DNA from: Branchiostoma floridae
Taxonomy: Eukaryota; Chordata; Leptocardii; Amphioxiformes; Branchiostomatidae
Direction of reading: 5' to 3'
NCBI RefSeq assembly: GCF_000003815.2
Contig: NC_049983.1
Span: 20,639,858-20,703,857, forward strand
DNA length: 64,000 bases
The notes below the pieces were generated by a model. The model saw only the letters and a program-made list of their open reading frames with translations, did not search any database and was not told the origin of the DNA. The first letter of the stretch is position 1. Every line of letters starts with the position of its first letter. A program made the translations under genes and the position numbers. This document shows positions 1-42,098 of the stretch, piece by piece.

Positions 1-3000
1 TGTTCAGCCCCCTGTGGAACCGGGACCATGTGCAGTGTGTTGTCATCACCTTCAAGGAGCCATTTGGCACCATGGGCAGGGGGGGATATTTTGACGAGTC
101 TGGAATCATCAGGTGAGGGCTGTTGAAAGTTTAGATAACGAGTGATGATGTACCTCTTTTACTCTTAGATGGAGAGATACATAATCATGTATTCCTTTGT
201 GGATTCCTTTCTGGCAAGGTAATCTTGTTGGTGGCAAGGTAGTCTAGTAGCTAGGGTCCTTGACTTAAGGATCTAGATGTTTTAGTTTAATCTCTAGCAG
301 GCTGCAATGTTGCACCCTTTGAAAATGCTTTTTACTTCCATTTCCTCACTTGACTGGGTGAAAATGTGTACCTCCTGGTAGCTAGCTTCACATAAGGACG
401 TTCTCTCAGATGTAAAGCTGGAGGTCCTGTAGTCAAGGAGCACACCTCAAACATGTTTAAGTTCCCACCACACTTTTAAAAAGAGTCTTGGTCCATCCCA
501 GTTTGAGCAGTCTGGTTTTGCACAACTAATACTTGTTGTACTTGCGTGTTACACTTGAAGCAGTTTACCAGCTAACAAGAAAATTCTTTGTTTCTGGCTG
601 TCCCAGATTCACCATACTGTGAGTTGTTACCATTCTCATGACCCCTGAAATGTTTATCTATATGTAACAAGTTGTCCCATTTCCTGTAATCCCAGAGATG
701 TGATGCAGAACCACCTGATGCAGATCCTGTCCCTGGTCGCCATGGAGAAACCTGCCTCCACTAGTGCAGAGGACATCAGAGATGAGAAGGTCAAACTAAC
801 CCTGCATCATGTTACACTATTAATAACATAACCCTACACGATGTTATACTATTAACCTAGCCCTACATCATGTTACACTATCAAGCTAACCCTACATCAT
901 GTTACACTTATTAATCTAACCCTACATCATGAGACACTATGAATAACACAAGCCAACATGTGTATATCATGAAACACTATTATCTTAACCCTACATCATG
1001 ATACAGCATAAACCTCTCTTCAATAACAGTCACCTTTTGCAAAGATGATCAGATTACAAGCTACATTAATCATGTTGCTGTGTGTGTTCCTACATGAATT
1101 ATTACAGACATGTCCTTGCATATCTATTGGAATGACTGTATGAATGTTGATATGGATAGGTTCCCATCAACCATATATAGCCTCTTTGCATATGTTAGAT
1201 TACTGTAAATGCATTTAAGTTTGCGGGTATTAAATTTTGCGGTAGTGGGGAAAATGACTTTTTACTGTGGTTTTAAGTTCGCAGTAGCACTATGCACTGT
1301 AGTCTCTTACTGCCATGGAAATTTGTTCGTGGTGGTTTAACCACCAACATTAAACCACTGCAAAAGTTTCTGCATTTACAGTATTTATCATCTTGTAAAG
1401 ACCATAATATAGTTAGTTAACTCACTAGTTAGGCATCATCATCGTTTCAATTCATCATAGAATGATGCAATGATCTTTGTTTTGCTTGAGCTGATTATGT
1501 AATTAATCAACATAATCTGAGCTGATTAATATGTCATTATGAAATAATTGTTATCAACACATCAAATGTCTTGATTAGCATATCATCTCAAATGGTTTAG
1601 CATTGTATTAAGCTATTCATTTAGTATGTTTTACTTTATGTTGAGGATATAAGACCATGTGATAACCCTTCAGCACCAAGGACAGAGAAACAGACATGGC
1701 CATGTAGTTTTGCCTGCATGTTTGACTGACATGGGTTGATCCTGTTGTACAGGTGAAAGTGCTGAAGTGCATGCCTCCCCTGGATCTGGACAACGTTGTG
1801 GTTGGACAGTACACCGGGGACCCTGAGGGGCAGGGCGATGCCAAAAATGGCTACCTGGATGACCCCACTGTGCCCAAGGGCTCAGTCACCCCCACCTTTG
1901 CCACAGCTGTGGTGTTTGTGAAGACAGAGAGATGGGACGGGGTTCCTTTCATCATGAAGTGTGGGAAAGGTAGGATGTCCTCAGATTACCACTATTAACT
2001 TTAATATAGTAATCTCATGATTTCATTCCCCAGCAAAGATATAAGTACACACAACACCACATGTGATGTGTTCTCAATACTAAGCTTTGAATTGGACAAT
2101 GCCATTTTCTAGAAGGTTGGTCAAAAACGTTTTCCAGAGGTTGACTGAAAATGCAGGGCAGGGTACTTTAGACACAATTTTTGTGTTGACTACTCACTTT
2201 AAGCTGCACCCAAATTGGTGAATGTTCAGTGGTAACAGGTGCATGAGTCACGTTTGATAGTACTGGTCAGTGCTCTGGTGTATACTCTTTACCAACTTTT
2301 TGTTCTAAATGGCATTGTTCAAATCCCACCCAGTATTGAGTACACTTTGGGACCGTGCCATGAATTCTGGGGAAAGGAGTTTGATGGTGTGTGAATCATT
2401 GAAATGGCAGCAAATCTGTATCTGAAAACTGTTGCTCTCAGCAATTCTCATGAATATTGTGTCTATCTCTCCTCATGCAGCTCTAAACGAGAGGAAGGCA
2501 GAAGTGCGGATCCAGTTCAAGGACGTTCCCGGTGACATCTTCGGCGGACAGTGCAAGCGTAACGAGCTGGTGATCCGTGTGCAGCCGCAGGAGGCTGTGT
2601 ACTGTAAGATGATGGTGAAGGCACCCGGCATGAACATCAACCCAGAGGAGTCAGAGCTGGACCTGTCATATGGGGCAAGATACAAGGTTTGTACATGGTC
2701 CCTTGTCTCGCCTTTTCTGTGTACTTGTTTTATCTAACAGTAACACTGTTATAAACCCATGTGGAGAAGGTGTAGGGAAGAAAAAGAGTTAAAAGGGGAG
2801 GTCCTGGAAAAAGTTTAATATGGAGCTTAAATGCATCAAAATCGCTTCTGCAGTATCTCTGATAAAGTAACATGAAAGAGTGCATATGTAATTTTGCAGT
2901 GTTAGTAGCATGTTCAGTTACTGTTGTGTTTTGTATGTTTTATTCATTCTTGGTGACTGTTGTGTTTTGTGTTGTTGATACGTCTGACTGTATTCTATTT

Positions 3001-4189
3001 CTGTCCTGTACAGGGGGTGAAGATGCCTGATGCATATGAGCGACTCATCCTGGATGTGTTCTGTGGCGCACAACTCCACTTTGTCAGAAGGTACTCTATC
3101 ATGTCCAGCAATATCTGAGATTTTTTTTTTCTTTTCTTAATGGAATGATTCTGCTGTACTATATCATGTTGCTACCTTCACCAAGAATATTATATTTTGG
3201 GGTGCTTGTCTGTGTGTGTGTGTGTGTGTGTCTGTCTGTATCTTTATGATATTTTGGTGTTTTGGTAATTGTTTGAAAAATGAAGAAATGATTACATTAT
3301 GGGGTCCCTGGCAGCTTTCCATGGTACTGCAACAGGACTTCCTTTTTCAAAATCTTGTGTTCTGGACTTGTATGGTAATAATTTATTGATGTTAGATAGT
3401 TTGGATCTGCTTGACGTGAGTCTACTTGTGTTTTATAGTGATGAACTGCGAGAGGCCTGGAGGATTTTTACACCACTGCTTCACAAACTAGAGAAGGAAA
3501 AGATCAAGCCTGCACCTTACAAGTATGGCAGGTGAGTTGGCTCTTTTGAAATGGCTCCTGCTGGTGTACTGATGCTGTTGAGCAATTTTGGTTGCTGAGT
3601 GGATTTTATCAATGCCCTTCCCAAGGTCTCCCCTTCCCCACAAGTGCAAAGCAAAAAACATTGGTTGGTTAAGACAGTTGGTCACTTAGGCTTAGGTCAC
3701 ATTTCCAAACCAGGGCCCTGTCGGATAGCTTTCGGGAGCACAAAATGCCCAAATAAGATTCATGGGCATGATTTGTGCACATTTCTAGGGATACATTTCA
3801 ATTTTTTGTTTCTTAAAACATCCTGGCCAGGCTGCGGTTTGGAAATGGGACCTAAGCCTCAGCAGAGGTCCTATGAAGTTGGATGTGGCATGTTACTGGA
3901 GATGGTTGTCTGTGCCAGATGTACCAAGCTGTAGGATTGGAATCCTACAAAAGCACATCCACTTTCAATAACAAACAAAAAAGCACAATTTTTTGTGTAC
4001 TAGAACTACATTGTAAACCTTGCTTGAACTACACTGGTACCTTAAATGTGTATAATGCATGATAACAGATACTAAGCTGTCTTGTTTACTGATTTTCCCA
4101 GCCGAGGCCCCCAGGAATCTGACGACCTTGCCAGGAGGTTTGGCTTCATTTTCTCAGGCACCTACAAGTGGACCAAGCCCCAGCTGTGA
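1..4189 (+). CDS. G6PD: Glucose-6-phosphate 1-dehydrogenase, 3' part (7 exons; 5' end outside window)
   Basis: G6PD oxidises glucose-6-phosphate to 6-phosphogluconolactone with NADP+, the cytosolic entry step of the oxidative pentose phosphate pathway. Coding exons: <1-112, 696-789, 1753-1969, 2481-2686, 3014-3090, 3439-3531, 4102-4189 (stop TGA 4187-4189). Every junction is GT/AG and keeps phase. The translation matches the animal enzyme from its middle to its C-terminus. It has FKEPFGT and GRGGYFDE, then DVMQNHL, whose His is the catalytic base in the family (His263 in human). It continues with [54 protein letters not shown] and [13 protein letters not shown], and ends in [10 protein letters not shown]. 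No frameshift or missing key residue is visible in this part. The N-terminal NADP-binding Rossmann region must lie to the left of the window. The gene converges with CERK. The identification is very secure. Confidence 0.97.
793..1010. repeat. Degenerate minisatellite in a G6PD intron
   Basis: Five to seven imperfect tandem copies of a roughly 35-40 bp unit with the core CTAACCCTACATCATG followed by TTACACTATTAA. They lie just downstream of the exon ending at 789. The copies differ by point changes and small indels. Confidence 0.8.
1203..1381. mobile_element. TA-flanked MITE (family A, copy 1)
   Basis: A 179-bp element in a G6PD intron. It starts CTGTAAATGCA and ends TGCATTTACAG, a perfect inverted match, with TA on both sides (1201-1202 and 1382-1383). 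The interior has TTTGCGG and a tract related to ACTGTGGTTTTAAGTT, both also seen in the copy at 24735-24900. It has no coding capacity. The TA duplication suggests mobilisation by a Tc1/mariner-type transposase (inference). Confidence 0.8.
3687..3858. mobile_element. Inverted-repeat MITE (family B, copy 1)
   Basis: Starts with TTAGGCTTAGGTCACATTTCC followed by AAACCAGGGCC. It ends with the imperfect complement around GGTTTGGAAATGGGACCTAAGCC. It lies in the last G6PD intron. A second copy with the same ends lies at 46089-46299. The interiors differ, as is common for MITEs sharing only their termini. Confidence 0.8.
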
Positions 4190-5479
4190 ACAGATCAGGA
4201 GGAGGAACTTCCATGAAGTGAAGACATACTCTCCAGGCAGAGGTTTGGCTCCGGCTGTTTTATGCGTCCGCTGGCCAGCGGATATGAAGAAAATGGAACA
4301 AAATAGAATGCCTAACAAAAATATGTCAAAAACAGATATTGTCAAACCTCTGTTTTGATAGTATGCATGTAGAAGACACACACAGCAGCTTACAGTGATG
4401 CTGCAATTTCAACTCCGTCAGTTGATCCATTCATTGTGTATGTTTAGACTGAAGAGCCCTTCTATAAGAATAGATGTTACTTTTTTCCAATAGTCCAAGT
4501 ATCCCAACAATTATTTGGTTATTACTTTAAAATTTATGGAATTGTGTATACATTATACCAGAATATACCTTTTCATTTTTGCCATTTGATATGCTACTGG
4601 TGGCAGCTTTAAGAAGATCCTGGTAGCATCTTCTATGTTACTTCTAACGCATATCATTGCTACTTGTATAACCTTTCTATTTTCTATATTGTTTGTTATG
4701 CTAAGATTATGCTTTTTATACGCTAAATGTACACTGCAATGCCTTGGATCACTCACATAACATCATGCTTTCATGATCACTATGCACAAATTGATTTTAC
4801 TGTCTGCAGTCTTTCAATACACATAAATATTGTGTTAAAGGTACAAAATGTTAAATATGTTTTCCATCATAATGTAATTGGTATTGGGCTCAATCTGAAT
4901 CCATGGTGTTCCTTTTTGTACGAATGGATGTATGTAACAGTTTCAAATTGACAAAAAAGTATGAGCAAATTTGTAATATACATTTTGCACTGTACACTAC
5001 AACTCTTATTTTCAACTTCATATGATATAAGACATTAAGTGTAGACGCTAAGTACACTGCAGTAAATGTTCAAAGTAACACAGAAGAAAGTGTAGCTCTT
5101 TGTCAACTAATATAACATCTTTGAAGTGTATGGATGTTATGTGCCATCAGCTGCTACTTCTGTACTACTACAGTAACTATAATGTCAGAATGTATGTTCA
5201 ACCTAACAGAATACAGGTGGAAAATCTTTCTGTATTTCAAGCTGTGTTTAAAGTATTACACTGGCAAAACTAGTTCTCTATCAACTGAACACAATGCAAT
5301 TACAAAGACACACAAAAAGACATAAAACAATTACTTTCATTTTCATTTCAATCTCCATAATCAGACCTATCAAGTGATGTGATGATACAAAACATGTCAG
5401 AACTCCTATCCATCCCGAGAGTGTAAAAAAACTCTCTTCTGTTCTTCCAAACATAATCAGCATTACTCTACATGACAGA
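4190..5479 (+). other. G6PD 3' UTR and convergent intergenic DNA
   Basis: AT-rich non-coding sequence after the G6PD stop. It includes a small foldback repeat at 4238-4354. I see no canonical AATAAA on the + strand here, so the G6PD cleavage site cannot be placed. The short ORFs have no recognisable protein character. Confidence 0.5.
4238..4354. mobile_element. Small foldback repeat in the G6PD 3' UTR (family C, copy 1)
   Basis: The ends GCAGAGGTTTG and CAAACCTCTG are inverted complements. The centre is a palindrome around TCCGCTGGCCAGCGGA. An interior tract, AAAATGGAACAAAATAGAATG, closely matches AAAATGGTACAAAATAGAAAG in the hairpin at 62919-63064. It begins about 50 bp after the G6PD stop codon, so it is probably transcribed in the 3' UTR. 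Confidence 0.65.
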
Positions 5480-38014: not shown

Positions 38015-38548
38015 TCATTCAGGAGCTATACACAGACACTGTAAGTTGTGTCAGAGTTGGAGCCAACTACTCTGATTGGTTCGAGCTTTGCAGCGGTGTC
38101 GCCAAGGCTGTGTCCTAGCCCCAACACTTTTCAACACTGCCATCGATCACGTGATGTCCAGGACGGTTGGGTGGGGAATGTGGCATGTGCGGTACCACCT
38201 ACGCAGACCATATTTATCTTTACCGATATGGACTACGCTGATGATGAGGCACTACTCGCAGAACTCCTAGGAGCACTGGTCAGTTCCCTCGAGATCTTTG
38301 CTGAAGAGAGCCAAAGTCTGGGCCTTGAGGTTAGCTGGCTGAAGACAAAGCTTCAGTCCCTCAGTGACTTCTTGGACGAACCAGTATGCCCTACCATTAG
38401 AGGACAGTCAGTCGAGGTGGTCCAGTGCTTCAACTACCTTGGAAGTCTTATCACATCAGACTGTAAATCAGACCATGATATCAAGAGGAGAGTAGGTATA
38501 GCCTCTGCAGCTTTTGCCCCACTTGACCGAGTCTGGCGTTGCAAACAA

Positions 38549-41500
38549 GGGAGGGTCTTTTTAGCGAATGCCCACAAACGCCCACTCTAGAGAAGTCAGC
38601 GCTGCACGAATCTCATTTTTTTTGCTTGGAATATGTCCACGTTGTGCTCCCATGTATTAATCCTGAGTTTCAAGTCAATCCATTGACCCGAAGTGACATA
38701 AATCAAAGTTTTCGATTCTCGATGGTCTTTTTAGCGAACGCCCAGCAAAATGTCTTTTTAGCGAATGCCCACTATATCCACAAAAATATCGGCCGTCGCG
38801 CAACGACACCTAAACCTACCGCCACAAACATGTTCAAGATGGTGTCCCATTGATGTGTACGGAGTTTCCGTGCTTTACAAGCATTTTAAGTCCCTGTTTT
38901 TGGTCAAAATGTACGGCGACGATACTACCATACTTTAACTATAGCAATTCAAAATGGCGGGCACTAGTCATGTGACCTCCTTGTGGGACTGTTCTATAAG
39001 TATCGCGGGAGGGACTGTTGTAGCATAGCTTCTCATACAACCAATTTAGAGTGAATTCTGAACAAGATTTTCATTTCATAGTGCTATCATCTGACTGATA
39101 TTTACAATGTGGTCATTTTTTCTGTGCTATTATTACCCAGGTTTGAGGAACTTAGTGCAAATTTGGATATTGATTCACCTCAGTGCCCAATTAATGTACA
39201 AAAGGCTCAGACACATTAGTGTTATAAACCTGAATAGGGGCAGGTAACCAATACTAGAAAAACATAGCTATTTATTATTAACAATACTATTTACATTATA
39301 ATAATAACTCTTCACCAAACTGGACTTTTCTTATCTTTATTTATCACAGAAACATTGTTACAATGAGGATTTGATTAGATGAGTATCTGTTACAGTGTGT
39401 ACAAACTTATTTCAAATACAAAAATGTATTTCGTTTCACTTCCTAAATATTTTTAAAGTATTGGAAGAAGTTGACACATAAACAATATTAATTGCATTAT
39501 TTATGTGCAGTAAAATGTGACTACATGCTATCAATAGCCTAATAAAATGTTGGAACATGGCACAAGCGGGCTCCTCTTCTGAGTACAGAAAGGAAATGTT
39601 TTATAACATTTAGTTATGACGTAGAAAATTTCCATTGTAAAATGTACATTTATTAACATTTACAAACAAATTGTTTTTTCTCTTCTTAATAAATGACAAC
39701 AATACAGGTAAGTAAGGTGTGTTTCCTTTTATAACAGGCCAGGTAAGACGCCGTACAGGTAAGTAAGGTGTGTTTCCTTTTATAGCAGACCAGGTAAGAC
39801 ACCGTACAGGTGAGTAAGGTGTGTTTCCTTGACTACAGACTAGGTAAGACACCTTACAGGTGAGCAACGTGTATTTCCTTTCATTACAGACCAGGTAAGA
39901 CACCGTACAGGTGAGTAACGTGTATTTCCTTTGATTACAGACCAGGTAAGACACCGTACAGATGAGTAAGGTGTGTTTCCTTGACTACAGACTAGGTAAG
40001 ACACCGTACAGGTGAGTAAGGTGTGTTTCCTTGACTACAGACTAGGTAAGACACCGTACAGGTGAGTAACGTGTATTTCCTTTCATTACAGACCAGGTAA
40101 GACACCGTACAGGTGAGTAACGTGTATTTACTCCCCTGTTTAATACCTATCTGGTCTATAGGCAAAGGAAAGTTGCTTTACTCACCTGTATAATACCCTG
40201 TCTGGTCTATAGGCAAAGTAAAGACATCTTACTTACCAGTATAATGGCTTATCTGGTCTATAGCAAAAGGAAAGACACCTTACTCTCCTGTTTAATGGCC
40301 TATCTGGTCTATAGACAAAGGAAAGACACCTTATCCACCTGTATAATGGCCTATCTGGTATATAGACAAGGGAAAGACACCTTACTTACCTGTATAATGC
40401 CCCATCTGGTATATAGGCAAAGAAAAGACGCCTTACTCACCTGTGTAATACCCTATCTGGTCTATAGACAAAGGAAACACACCTCACTCACCTGTACGGT
40501 GTCTTACCTGGTCTGCTATAAAAGGAAACACACCTTACTTACCTGTACGGCGTCTTACCTGGCCTGTTATAAAAGGAAACACACCTTACTTACCTGTATT
40601 GTTGTCATTTATTAAGAAGAGAAATAACAATTTGTTTGTAAATGTTAATAAAGGTACATTTTACAATGGAAATTTTCTACGTCATAACTAAATGTTATAA
40701 AACATTTCCTTTCTGTACTCAGAAGAGGAGCCCGCTTGTGCCATGTTCCAACATTTTATTAGGCTATTGATAGCATGTGGTCACATTTTACTGCACATAA
40801 ATAATGCAATTAATATTGTTTATGTGTCAACTTCTTCCAATACTTTAGAAATATTTAGGAAGTGAAACGAAATACATTTTTGTATTTGAAATAAGTTTGT
40901 ACACACTGTAACAGATACTCATCTAATCAAATCCTCATTGTAACAATGTTTCTGTGATAAATAAAGATAAGAAAAGTCCAGTTTGGTGAAGAGTTATTAT
41001 TATAATGTAAATAGTATTGTTAATAATAAATAGCTATGTTTCTCTAGTATTGGTTACCTGCCCCTATTCAGGTTTATAACACTAATGTGTCTGAGCCTTT
41101 TGTACATTAATTGGGCACTGAGGTGAATCAATATCCAAATTTGCACTAAGTTCCTCAAACCTGGGTAATAATAGCACAGAAAAAATGACCACATTGTAAA
41201 TATCAGTCAGATGATAGCACTATGAAATGAAAATCTTGTTCAGAATTCACTCTAAATTGGTTGTATGAGAAGCTATGCTACAACAGTCCCTCCCGCGATA
41301 CTTATAGAACAGTCCCACAAGGAGGTCACATGACTAGTGCCCGCCATTTTGAATTGCTATAGTTAAAGTATGGTAGTATCGTCGCCGTACATTTTGACCA
41401 AAAACAGGGACTTAAAATGCTTGTAAAGCACGGAAACTCCGTACACATCAATGGGACACCATCTTGAACATGTTTGTGGCGGTAGGTTTAGGTGTCGTTG

Positions 41501-41753
41501 CGCGACGGCCGATATTTTTGTGGATATAGTGGGCATTCGCTAAAAAGACATTTTGCTGGGCGTTCGCTAAAAAGACCATCGAGAATCGAAAACTTTGATT
41601 TATGTCACTTCGGGTCAATGGATTGACTTGAAACTCAGGATTAATACATGGGAGCACAACGTGGACATATTCCAAGCAAAAAAAAATGAGATTCGTGCAG
41701 CGCGGACTTCTCTAGAGTGGGCGTTTGTGGGCATTCGCTAAAAAGACCATGCG
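38549..41753. mobile_element. 3.2-kb palindromic foldback element inserted in the retrotransposon
   Basis: The two halves are near-perfect inverted copies: arms of about 1.27 kb (38549-39830 and 40470-41753) around a tandem-repeat core. Termini contain GGTCTTTTTAGCGAATGCCC and its complement. The 9-bp direct repeat TGCAAACAA flanks it (38540-38548, 41754-41762). Removing the element and one repeat copy rejoins the host retrotransposon reading frame. The 9-bp duplication resembles Mutator-like (MULE) insertions, but no transposase is present, so the superfamily is inference. Confidence 0.92.
39690..40615. repeat. Mirror-image minisatellite core of the foldback element
   Basis: About nine units of roughly 50 bp on the left (39700-40130), for example ACAGGTGAGTAAGGTGTG followed by TTTCC...ACAGACCAGGTAAGACACCGT. 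The same unit runs in reverse orientation on the right (40130-40605). Both strands show open frames of repetitive peptide, produced by the repeat period and not by a gene. Confidence 0.9.
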
Positions 41754-41818
41754 TGCAAACAATTGTCCAGACAGACCAAGCTGAAGCCCTACAACACCCT
41801 GGTCCTCTCCGTCCTCCT

Positions 41819-42098
41819 ATATACATTTATCACGCCATGCAAAAAAGAAACTGTACCATTCCTAAATAACTTTTGACAAACATTATGTCGCTAGTAGTAT
41901 AGAAACAGCCAACCTGATGTATGCTAGAGTTCCCTTTAATACCTACCGTAGATTCCACTAGTACTGTATTAGCCGAAATTGTTGCAATATACCATATATG
42001 TGTAGTATTAGACCATACCTTTTGTTGTATATACATCGCCATACATTACTAATGCAATTGTTGCGCAATAAACCATCGTATCGTATCGTATCGTATAT
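41819..42098 (+). mobile_element. Short insertion with ATCGT tail inside the retrotransposon
   Basis: Interrupts the reverse-transcriptase frame between CTCCTATAT and GGGCGGAGGC. It ends in about five copies of ATCGT after CAATAAACC, as seen at 3' ends of some LINE/SINE elements. ATAT/TATATA at both edges suggests a short target duplication. Confidence 0.65.

Follow-up and report, generated by a model that had tools for sequence, protein, structure and literature searches.

A probable Mutator-superfamily foldback transposon family with unlike ends, and its candidate coding partner, in the Branchiostoma floridae genome

A 3.2-kb inverted-repeat element that interrupts a retrotransposon-like reading frame raises the question of what kind of element it is, what moves it and how its two arms stay alike. 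We addressed this question for an element in the window, the whole stretch of 64,000 nucleotides of Branchiostoma floridae contig NC_049983.1 analysed here. In our reading it is very probably a non-autonomous foldback DNA transposon of the Mutator superfamily, which would be moved in trans by a MULE transposase.

The element measures 3,205 bp (window positions 38549–41753), with the borders given in an earlier note on this DNA. As that note also described, it is a foldback element with a 9-bp target-site duplication, TGCAAACAA, which lies directly outside the element on both sides (38540–38548 and 41754–41762), and it has no transposase of its own. The outermost 5 bp are not inverted: the left end (38549–38553, plus strand) reads GGGAG and the right end (41749–41753, minus strand) reads CGCAT inward, so that the palindrome begins 5 bp inside the element. 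Across the 21 end pairs resolved below, GGGAG is found in all 21, CGCAT in 20 and TGCAT in one. A gapped alignment of the two arms of 1.15 kb (38554–39702, plus strand; 40599–41748, minus strand) shows 6 differences over 1,209 positions. Without gaps, 38616–39830 and 40471–41685 pair over 1,215 nt with a complementarity of 100% (rounded), and the 70-nt outer stretches 38554–38623 and 41679–41748 are 99% complementary. The earlier description as a near-perfect palindrome thus fits the arms, but neither the outermost 5 bp nor the middle 640 bp of 51-bp tandem repeats, which pair more weakly (~70–95% in short pieces). The window copy contains no N.

Within the window copy, a repeated terminal motif containing GGTCTTTTTAGCGAATGCCCA (38551–38574, plus strand) has further direct copies at 38721–38744 and 38748–38771 and inverted copies at 41530–41552, 41557–41579 and 41728–41750, and a motif TCTTTTTAGCGAAYGCCCA occurs three times per arm. 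The repeated terminal motifs are probably transposase-binding sites. The centre consists of a forward type A array of about eight 51-bp units (39703–40125, plus strand), a type B array (40128–40496, minus strand) and a reverse type A array of about three units (40457–40598, minus strand), which overlaps the B array in the repeat-finder output.

The interrupted host frame, named by eye as non-LTR reverse transcriptase-like, runs on the plus strand from 38048 to 38539 and resumes at 41754 to about 41821. When the flanks were joined with a single target-site duplication, the frame was open across the join. A genome search with the joined flanks gave 86 candidates, and 7 of the 40 scored matches span the empty join: five at 96, 96, 94, 89 and 80% over most of query positions 1–220 plus a shorter pair at 87 and 82%, with small length differences in some of the seven. 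The remaining matches were the window's own flanks (2) and a different high-copy repeat (31), which starts in the retrotransposon's right flank some 60 bp past the join. As paralogous empty sites span the join, the insertion is younger than its host retrotransposon copy, just as had been proposed. The accompanying claim that removal restores the host frame is correct through the join, but the other repeat begins about 20 codons further on, near 41821.

Next, we looked for relatives of the element throughout the genome (513 Mb, 431 contigs). A 35-bp terminus was found in 139 + 142 copies at up to 3 mismatches, while a reversed-pattern control gave none, which excludes chance. At up to 1 mismatch there were 119 left ends (GGGAG) and 123 right ends (CGCAT), and the family therefore comprises about 120 copies by end counts. 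We fetched 20 further loci and resolved both ends of 20 elements including the window copy. These elements account for 21 rows because one locus, L046, has two left ends; its second row (L046b) was omitted from element counts, and L051, whose right end is absent from the fetched 8 kb, from the resolved set. At L046 (C221:328500–338400) the two left ends, separated by 2.6 kb and bordered by one and the same 9-bp sequence, share one right end, reflecting either a local duplication or an assembly duplication.

Sixteen of the 20 resolved copies carry an exact 9-bp duplication, the count that the earlier note had suggested making; two others match at 8 of 9 positions, L052 has a duplication of 10 bp and L040 has none. 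The first position of the duplication is T or G in 14 of the 16 exact cases, among which no strong target consensus was seen beyond that position. The earlier note had held that other duplication lengths would speak against its reading; one copy of 20 (L052) shows such a length, which falls within the 8–11 bp range given for MULEs (PMC6446971).

The ends follow a rule that the earlier note had missed. Among 200 exact ends listed (100 of the 119 left and 100 of the 123 right ends), 158 form 79 inward-facing pairs and 42 are unpaired. Every one of these 79 pairs joins one GGGAG to one CGCAT end, and no like-ended pair occurs among them. The pairs span 1.1–30.2 kb (median 4.1 kb), with 58 of 79 at 3–5 kb. 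In a separate pass over 42 pairs from the 35-bp terminus search, 40 contained exactly one listed GGGAG end and two contained none.

The search for an element sharing these termini, likewise advised earlier, led to a candidate. A pattern excluding ordinary copies was found at six genome places, two of which face each other 30 kb apart on C8. The stretch that they enclose (C8:18762861–18793053; 30,193 bp) has the ends GGGAG and CGCAT, which are 99.4% alike (2 of 359 positions differ) and about 95% like those of the window copy. When the genome was searched with the left end (356 candidates), the right end was the best other match at 99%, followed by the other 38 scored at 95%. Since its ends are 5% unlike those of the foldback copies, the C8 element did not directly give rise to these copies. 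We examined about 11.8 kb of the 30.2 kb. Among seven samples of 1.3 kb, one contained a MULE-like frame and another (L063, 7.4–8.7 kb from the right end) consisted of 51-bp units like those of the family.

The C8 frame, of which 761 codons were examined, extends over 995 codons without stops and is of MULE type. A 433-aa part matches positions 1–99 of the profile PF10551 (MULE) with E 2.4e-5 and 25.1 bits, below the curated cut-off of 27.6, and gave no FLYWCH match in the same scan. Aligning six MULE-like proteins showed D117, D186 and H210 to be invariant; the glutamate in TNNNCES, which we take to be a catalytic residue, occurs in all five rows that have data there. A search of solved structures with the transposase part returned no match at E 1, nor did this part match any of 22 other family loci (L036–L057). 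The transposase is single-copy; the nearest other genome place, 40% identical, is a MULE-like frame of 970 codons at C17:13036034–13037146, which may be a sister family member. About 6 kb upstream of the C8 frame and on the same strand (~C8:18781.25k, minus) lies an ATG-started stretch ending in CxxC-x12-CxxC-x4-H followed by a GTAAGT donor. This may be one half of a PHD finger, encoded by a first exon; a Pfam scan of the stretch gave no match at E 1.

Altogether, PF10551 matches mark 27 places in the genome (L009–L035). We compared 28 MULE places with the listed end pairs, namely 26 of these 27 (the one on C139 left out) together with the C17 and C8 places, and the C8 frame alone lies inside a pair. 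The other PF10551 genes compared were consequently rejected as partners, and the exact terminal motif is absent from the fetched parts of all 27 loci. On these sequence grounds, the C8 element, which the earlier note had missed, is likely the coding partner of the foldback family. Of the nine PF10551 places scanned, L013 also has a FLYWCH finger above cut-off, L009 and L020 match ZSWIM1-3 RNaseH-like domains, and the open frame around L023 has 1,748 codons, some N included. Two family right ends, C18:7781488 and C18:7856908, are each located 3.6 kb outside a MULE frame; these places, 75 kb apart, resemble a segmental duplication.

The most serious alternative, unlikely in our judgement but deserving attention, is that the C8 stretch is no working transposon. 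Its ends, both of one subfamily, would then bracket unrelated DNA or belong to an old rearranged copy, with the real transposase elsewhere or lost from the assembly. The absence of a 9-bp duplication at the C8 element would fit this explanation, as would the 5% divergence of its ends and the single copy of the transposase. However, its two ends are each other's best match in the scored set of 40 among 356 candidates, they enclose a long MULE frame as well as 51-bp repeats like those of the family, and no other MULE place compared falls inside a listed pair. The other long pairs also bear on the question. Seven listed pairs exceed 7 kb: C8, 9.2 kb on C4, 8.4 kb on C5, 11.2 and 7.5 kb on C16, 18.2 kb on C14 and 7.9 kb on C17. 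Besides C8, the sequence examined covers the C4 and C5 pairs and part of the 11.2-kb C16 pair, and another coding copy among the long pairs is possible.

Three of these pairs were considered as coding copies. The C4 pair contains a nested reverse-transcriptase-like frame and the C5 pair consists mostly of N (6,365 of 8,501 bases), so neither was retained. In the 11.2-kb C16 pair, the locus L051 (C16:4849518–4857518) has a left arm 99.2% like that of the window copy and, at its positions 1–5332, at least 5.3 kb of other DNA inside the array. This DNA holds a 487-codon frame, whose Pfam matches reach no better than E 0.017, together with a DUF6589-like stretch that scores weakly (E 1.6e-4, 21 bits, cut-off 27) and has a C2H2-like finger, features that could favor a transposase elsewhere than on C8. 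Against this, the frame has 33 genome matches including itself, and the nearest one (89%; C10 at 2.2 Mb) is away from the listed family ends there. It is therefore more likely a nested foreign element than part of the family, and was rejected as the coding partner for its 32 other matches.

With the C8 element as the likely partner, we turned to the relationship of the family to known transposons. The copies examined show the features of foldback elements, i.e. long arms, internal tandem repeats and a middle domain. The Drosophila FB and FB-NOF elements have long inverted repeats partly made of short repeats and a 9-bp target-site duplication, and the present family is like them in these described features. 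Galileo and other P-element foldbacks encode a P-type transposase and make 7-bp duplications. In the present family, the duplications are of 9 bp and a MULE frame lies in an element with the same ends. That our family is a foldback of another superfamily, either of the P-element type, like Galileo, or of the Merlin type, is hence quite improbable, even though the foldback shape arises in several superfamilies (PMC3169594). For membership in the Mutator superfamily, the duplications lie in the expected range of 8–11 bp (16 of 20 exactly 9 bp), and the C8 element appears to provide a MULE-type DDE transposase between the same ends, which would act in trans on the other copies.

We found no published description of this family in titles and abstract openings (Repbase was outside the comparison). 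Among the published families found, Tm1 of root-knot nematodes (PMC3169594) comes closest, and since the same combination of features is present, we regard the family as a new member of the Mutator/Foldback kind. As reported for Tm1, most copies have a 9-bp duplication, unlike short end motifs lie outside the inverted repeat (7 bp in Tm1, 5 bp here, with GGGAG and CGCAT in all 79 listed pairs), the arms contain tandem repeats in unequal numbers on the two sides, and non-coding copies occur beside a single MULE-coding element. A like-ended Tm1 copy is reported to be without target-site duplication (PMC3169594). Differences exist as well: the coding element Tm1-A is 2.5 kb long with the FLYWCH finger of the Phantom clade, whereas the candidate here measures 30 kb (PMC3169594); our family has 1.15-kb arms and 51-bp arrays; and Tm1 is called inactive by its authors, while two identical-armed copies described below point to recent movement in B. 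floridae.

Two further families resemble ours in part. Rehavkus (PMC6446971) shares the 9-bp duplication, an internal minisatellite, which in Rehavkus lies next to the 3′ TIR, and a MULE-like DDE transposase; its PHD finger may have a counterpart in the possible half PHD finger upstream of the C8 frame. It differs by its TIRs of 26–400 bp and its arthropod and annelid hosts (PMC6446971). Tetris (PMC4079207) is likewise a foldback, with 8–10 bp duplications, tandem repeats of ~220 bp in its arms and an assignment to Mutator by its duplications, but its authors report three structurally complete copies only and found no coding element.

How the arms stay alike was analyzed in 17 copies (34 arms); L040, L043 and L055 were left out because of interrupted arms. 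The mean left–right difference inside one element was 0.84%, compared with 1.35% between left arms, 1.68% between right arms and 1.56% between left and right arms of different elements, and none of 10,000 permutations gave a random left–right pairing as low as the real one. Of 57 variants present in exactly two of the 34 arms, 48 occur in both arms of one element (expected share 3%) and nine in two elements; in the 11 gap-free copies, same-element sharing stood at 18 versus 15. These results support an exchange of sequence between the arms within an element, the extent of which may be inflated by assembly or polishing. None of the 48 arm-shared variants lies in the outer 300 bp, in contrast to 19 of 103 one-arm variants (Fisher p 0.0005). 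With 0 of 18 versus 11 of 73, the difference is not significant in the gap-free copies (p 0.11), and a sparing of the outer 300 bp by the exchange is suggestive. The nearest relative of an arm was its own mate in 16 of 34 cases and an arm of another copy in 18, as expected if whole elements descend and exchange acts occasionally.

The earlier note had attributed the likeness of the arms to recent formation or gene conversion. The arm-to-arm transfer seen in 48 of 57 two-arm variants agrees with the second, subject to the assembly caveat, whereas formation by rebuilding of the whole palindrome from one arm does not accord with the 79 unlike end pairs. Such rebuilding, by hairpin-templated repair or template switching, would account for L054 and L047, whose arms differ at 0 and 1 positions while the nearest other copies are 0.8–0.9% away. 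Copying of a whole arm, however, predicts identical ends, and with 79 of 79 listed pairs unlike we rejected a de novo hairpin origin of whole palindromes. Furthermore, L039 (C13) and L045 (C3), whose arms are identical in the compared columns, share both the left and the right arm version and were therefore inherited as whole elements. Rebuilding is thus largely refuted and highly improbable as a general explanation, with copying limited to the inner arm as its possible remainder. The identical arms of L039 and L045 would at the same time point to a recent movement of the family.

Least probable of all is an assembly artefact, in which one arm was duplicated in reverse or two arms were polished to one consensus. 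In its favor, palindromes are hard to assemble, several of the 20 resolved elements contain N, arm-shared variants are possibly polishing errors, and sharing between arms is weaker when the 17 copies are narrowed to the 11 without gaps. Against it stand the 79 inward-facing pairs among the listed ends, the 9-bp duplications, which lie at different sites and are exact in 16 of 20 copies, the unequal unit counts on the two sides, the different outermost 5 bp and the N-free window copy.

The unit maps of the copies read, in order, arm, forward A array, B array, a 20-bp spacer, one reverse B unit, reverse A array and arm, with unit numbers often unequal between the two sides of one element. Despite their identical arms, L039 has 24 forward A units and L045 has 16, so that the arrays change faster than the arms. 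In the 18 copies with a readable apex (L049 and L055 being unreadable), the B array is forward in 15 and inverted relative to the ends in three, as read from the unit maps. Those three are the gap-free window copy and L047 and L052, which contain gaps. Each 51-bp unit in the window (39703–40598) combines a donor-like CAGGTGAGT/CAGGTAAGT with an acceptor-like TTTCCTTTnnnTACAG, an outline common to A and B. Since the intron-like part is no better conserved than the rest of the unit (0.885 vs 0.951 in A, 0.862 vs 0.923 in B), we do not claim a splicing function.

Based on the proposed in-trans movement, the following scenario can be drawn. A MULE transposase, most likely from the 30-kb C8 element, would bind the repeated TCTTTTTAGCGAAYGCCC sites and join one left and one right end. 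The element would then be excised and reinserted with a 9-bp staggered cut, i.e. by cut-and-paste in trans. The arms might fold back on each other or cross over at the repeat-filled centre, and this pairing would invert the loop and copy sequence from arm to arm, leaving the outermost bases of the two ends unlike. One step further, and with somewhat less than even credence, we envisage a palindrome that homogenises itself, with a transposase that requires two unlike ends and with hairpin or cruciform intermediates through which the arms exchange sequence and the loop is inverted freely. Like-ended elements would then be absent because exchange reaching the last bases yields immobile left–left or right–right elements.

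Some foldback families, such as Tetris as described in PMC4079207, are without a known coding partner. In the present case a single genome contains about 120 copies by end counts together with a candidate coding element, and the ends in the listed pairs obey a clear rule, so that the way in which transposase, end asymmetry and maintenance of the palindrome are connected is directly testable. The 27 PF10551 places and the C8 frame also change the statement in PMC6446971 that no MULE transposase is detectable in Branchiostoma floridae. In addition, near-perfect long inverted repeats at many sites could be substrates for double-stranded RNA and for chromosome inversions.

Finally, two loci show other coding sequence within family copies. 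In L056 (C4:18378800–18388100) the central array of a foldback copy contains a nested reverse-transcriptase-like frame of 1,188 codons, which is adjoined by a second partial copy. L057 (C5:28294900–28303400), the 8.4-kb C5 pair with its 6.4 kb of N, encloses a creatine kinase-like segment between the two family ends, and the solved structures nearest to this fragment are M- and B-type creatine kinases.
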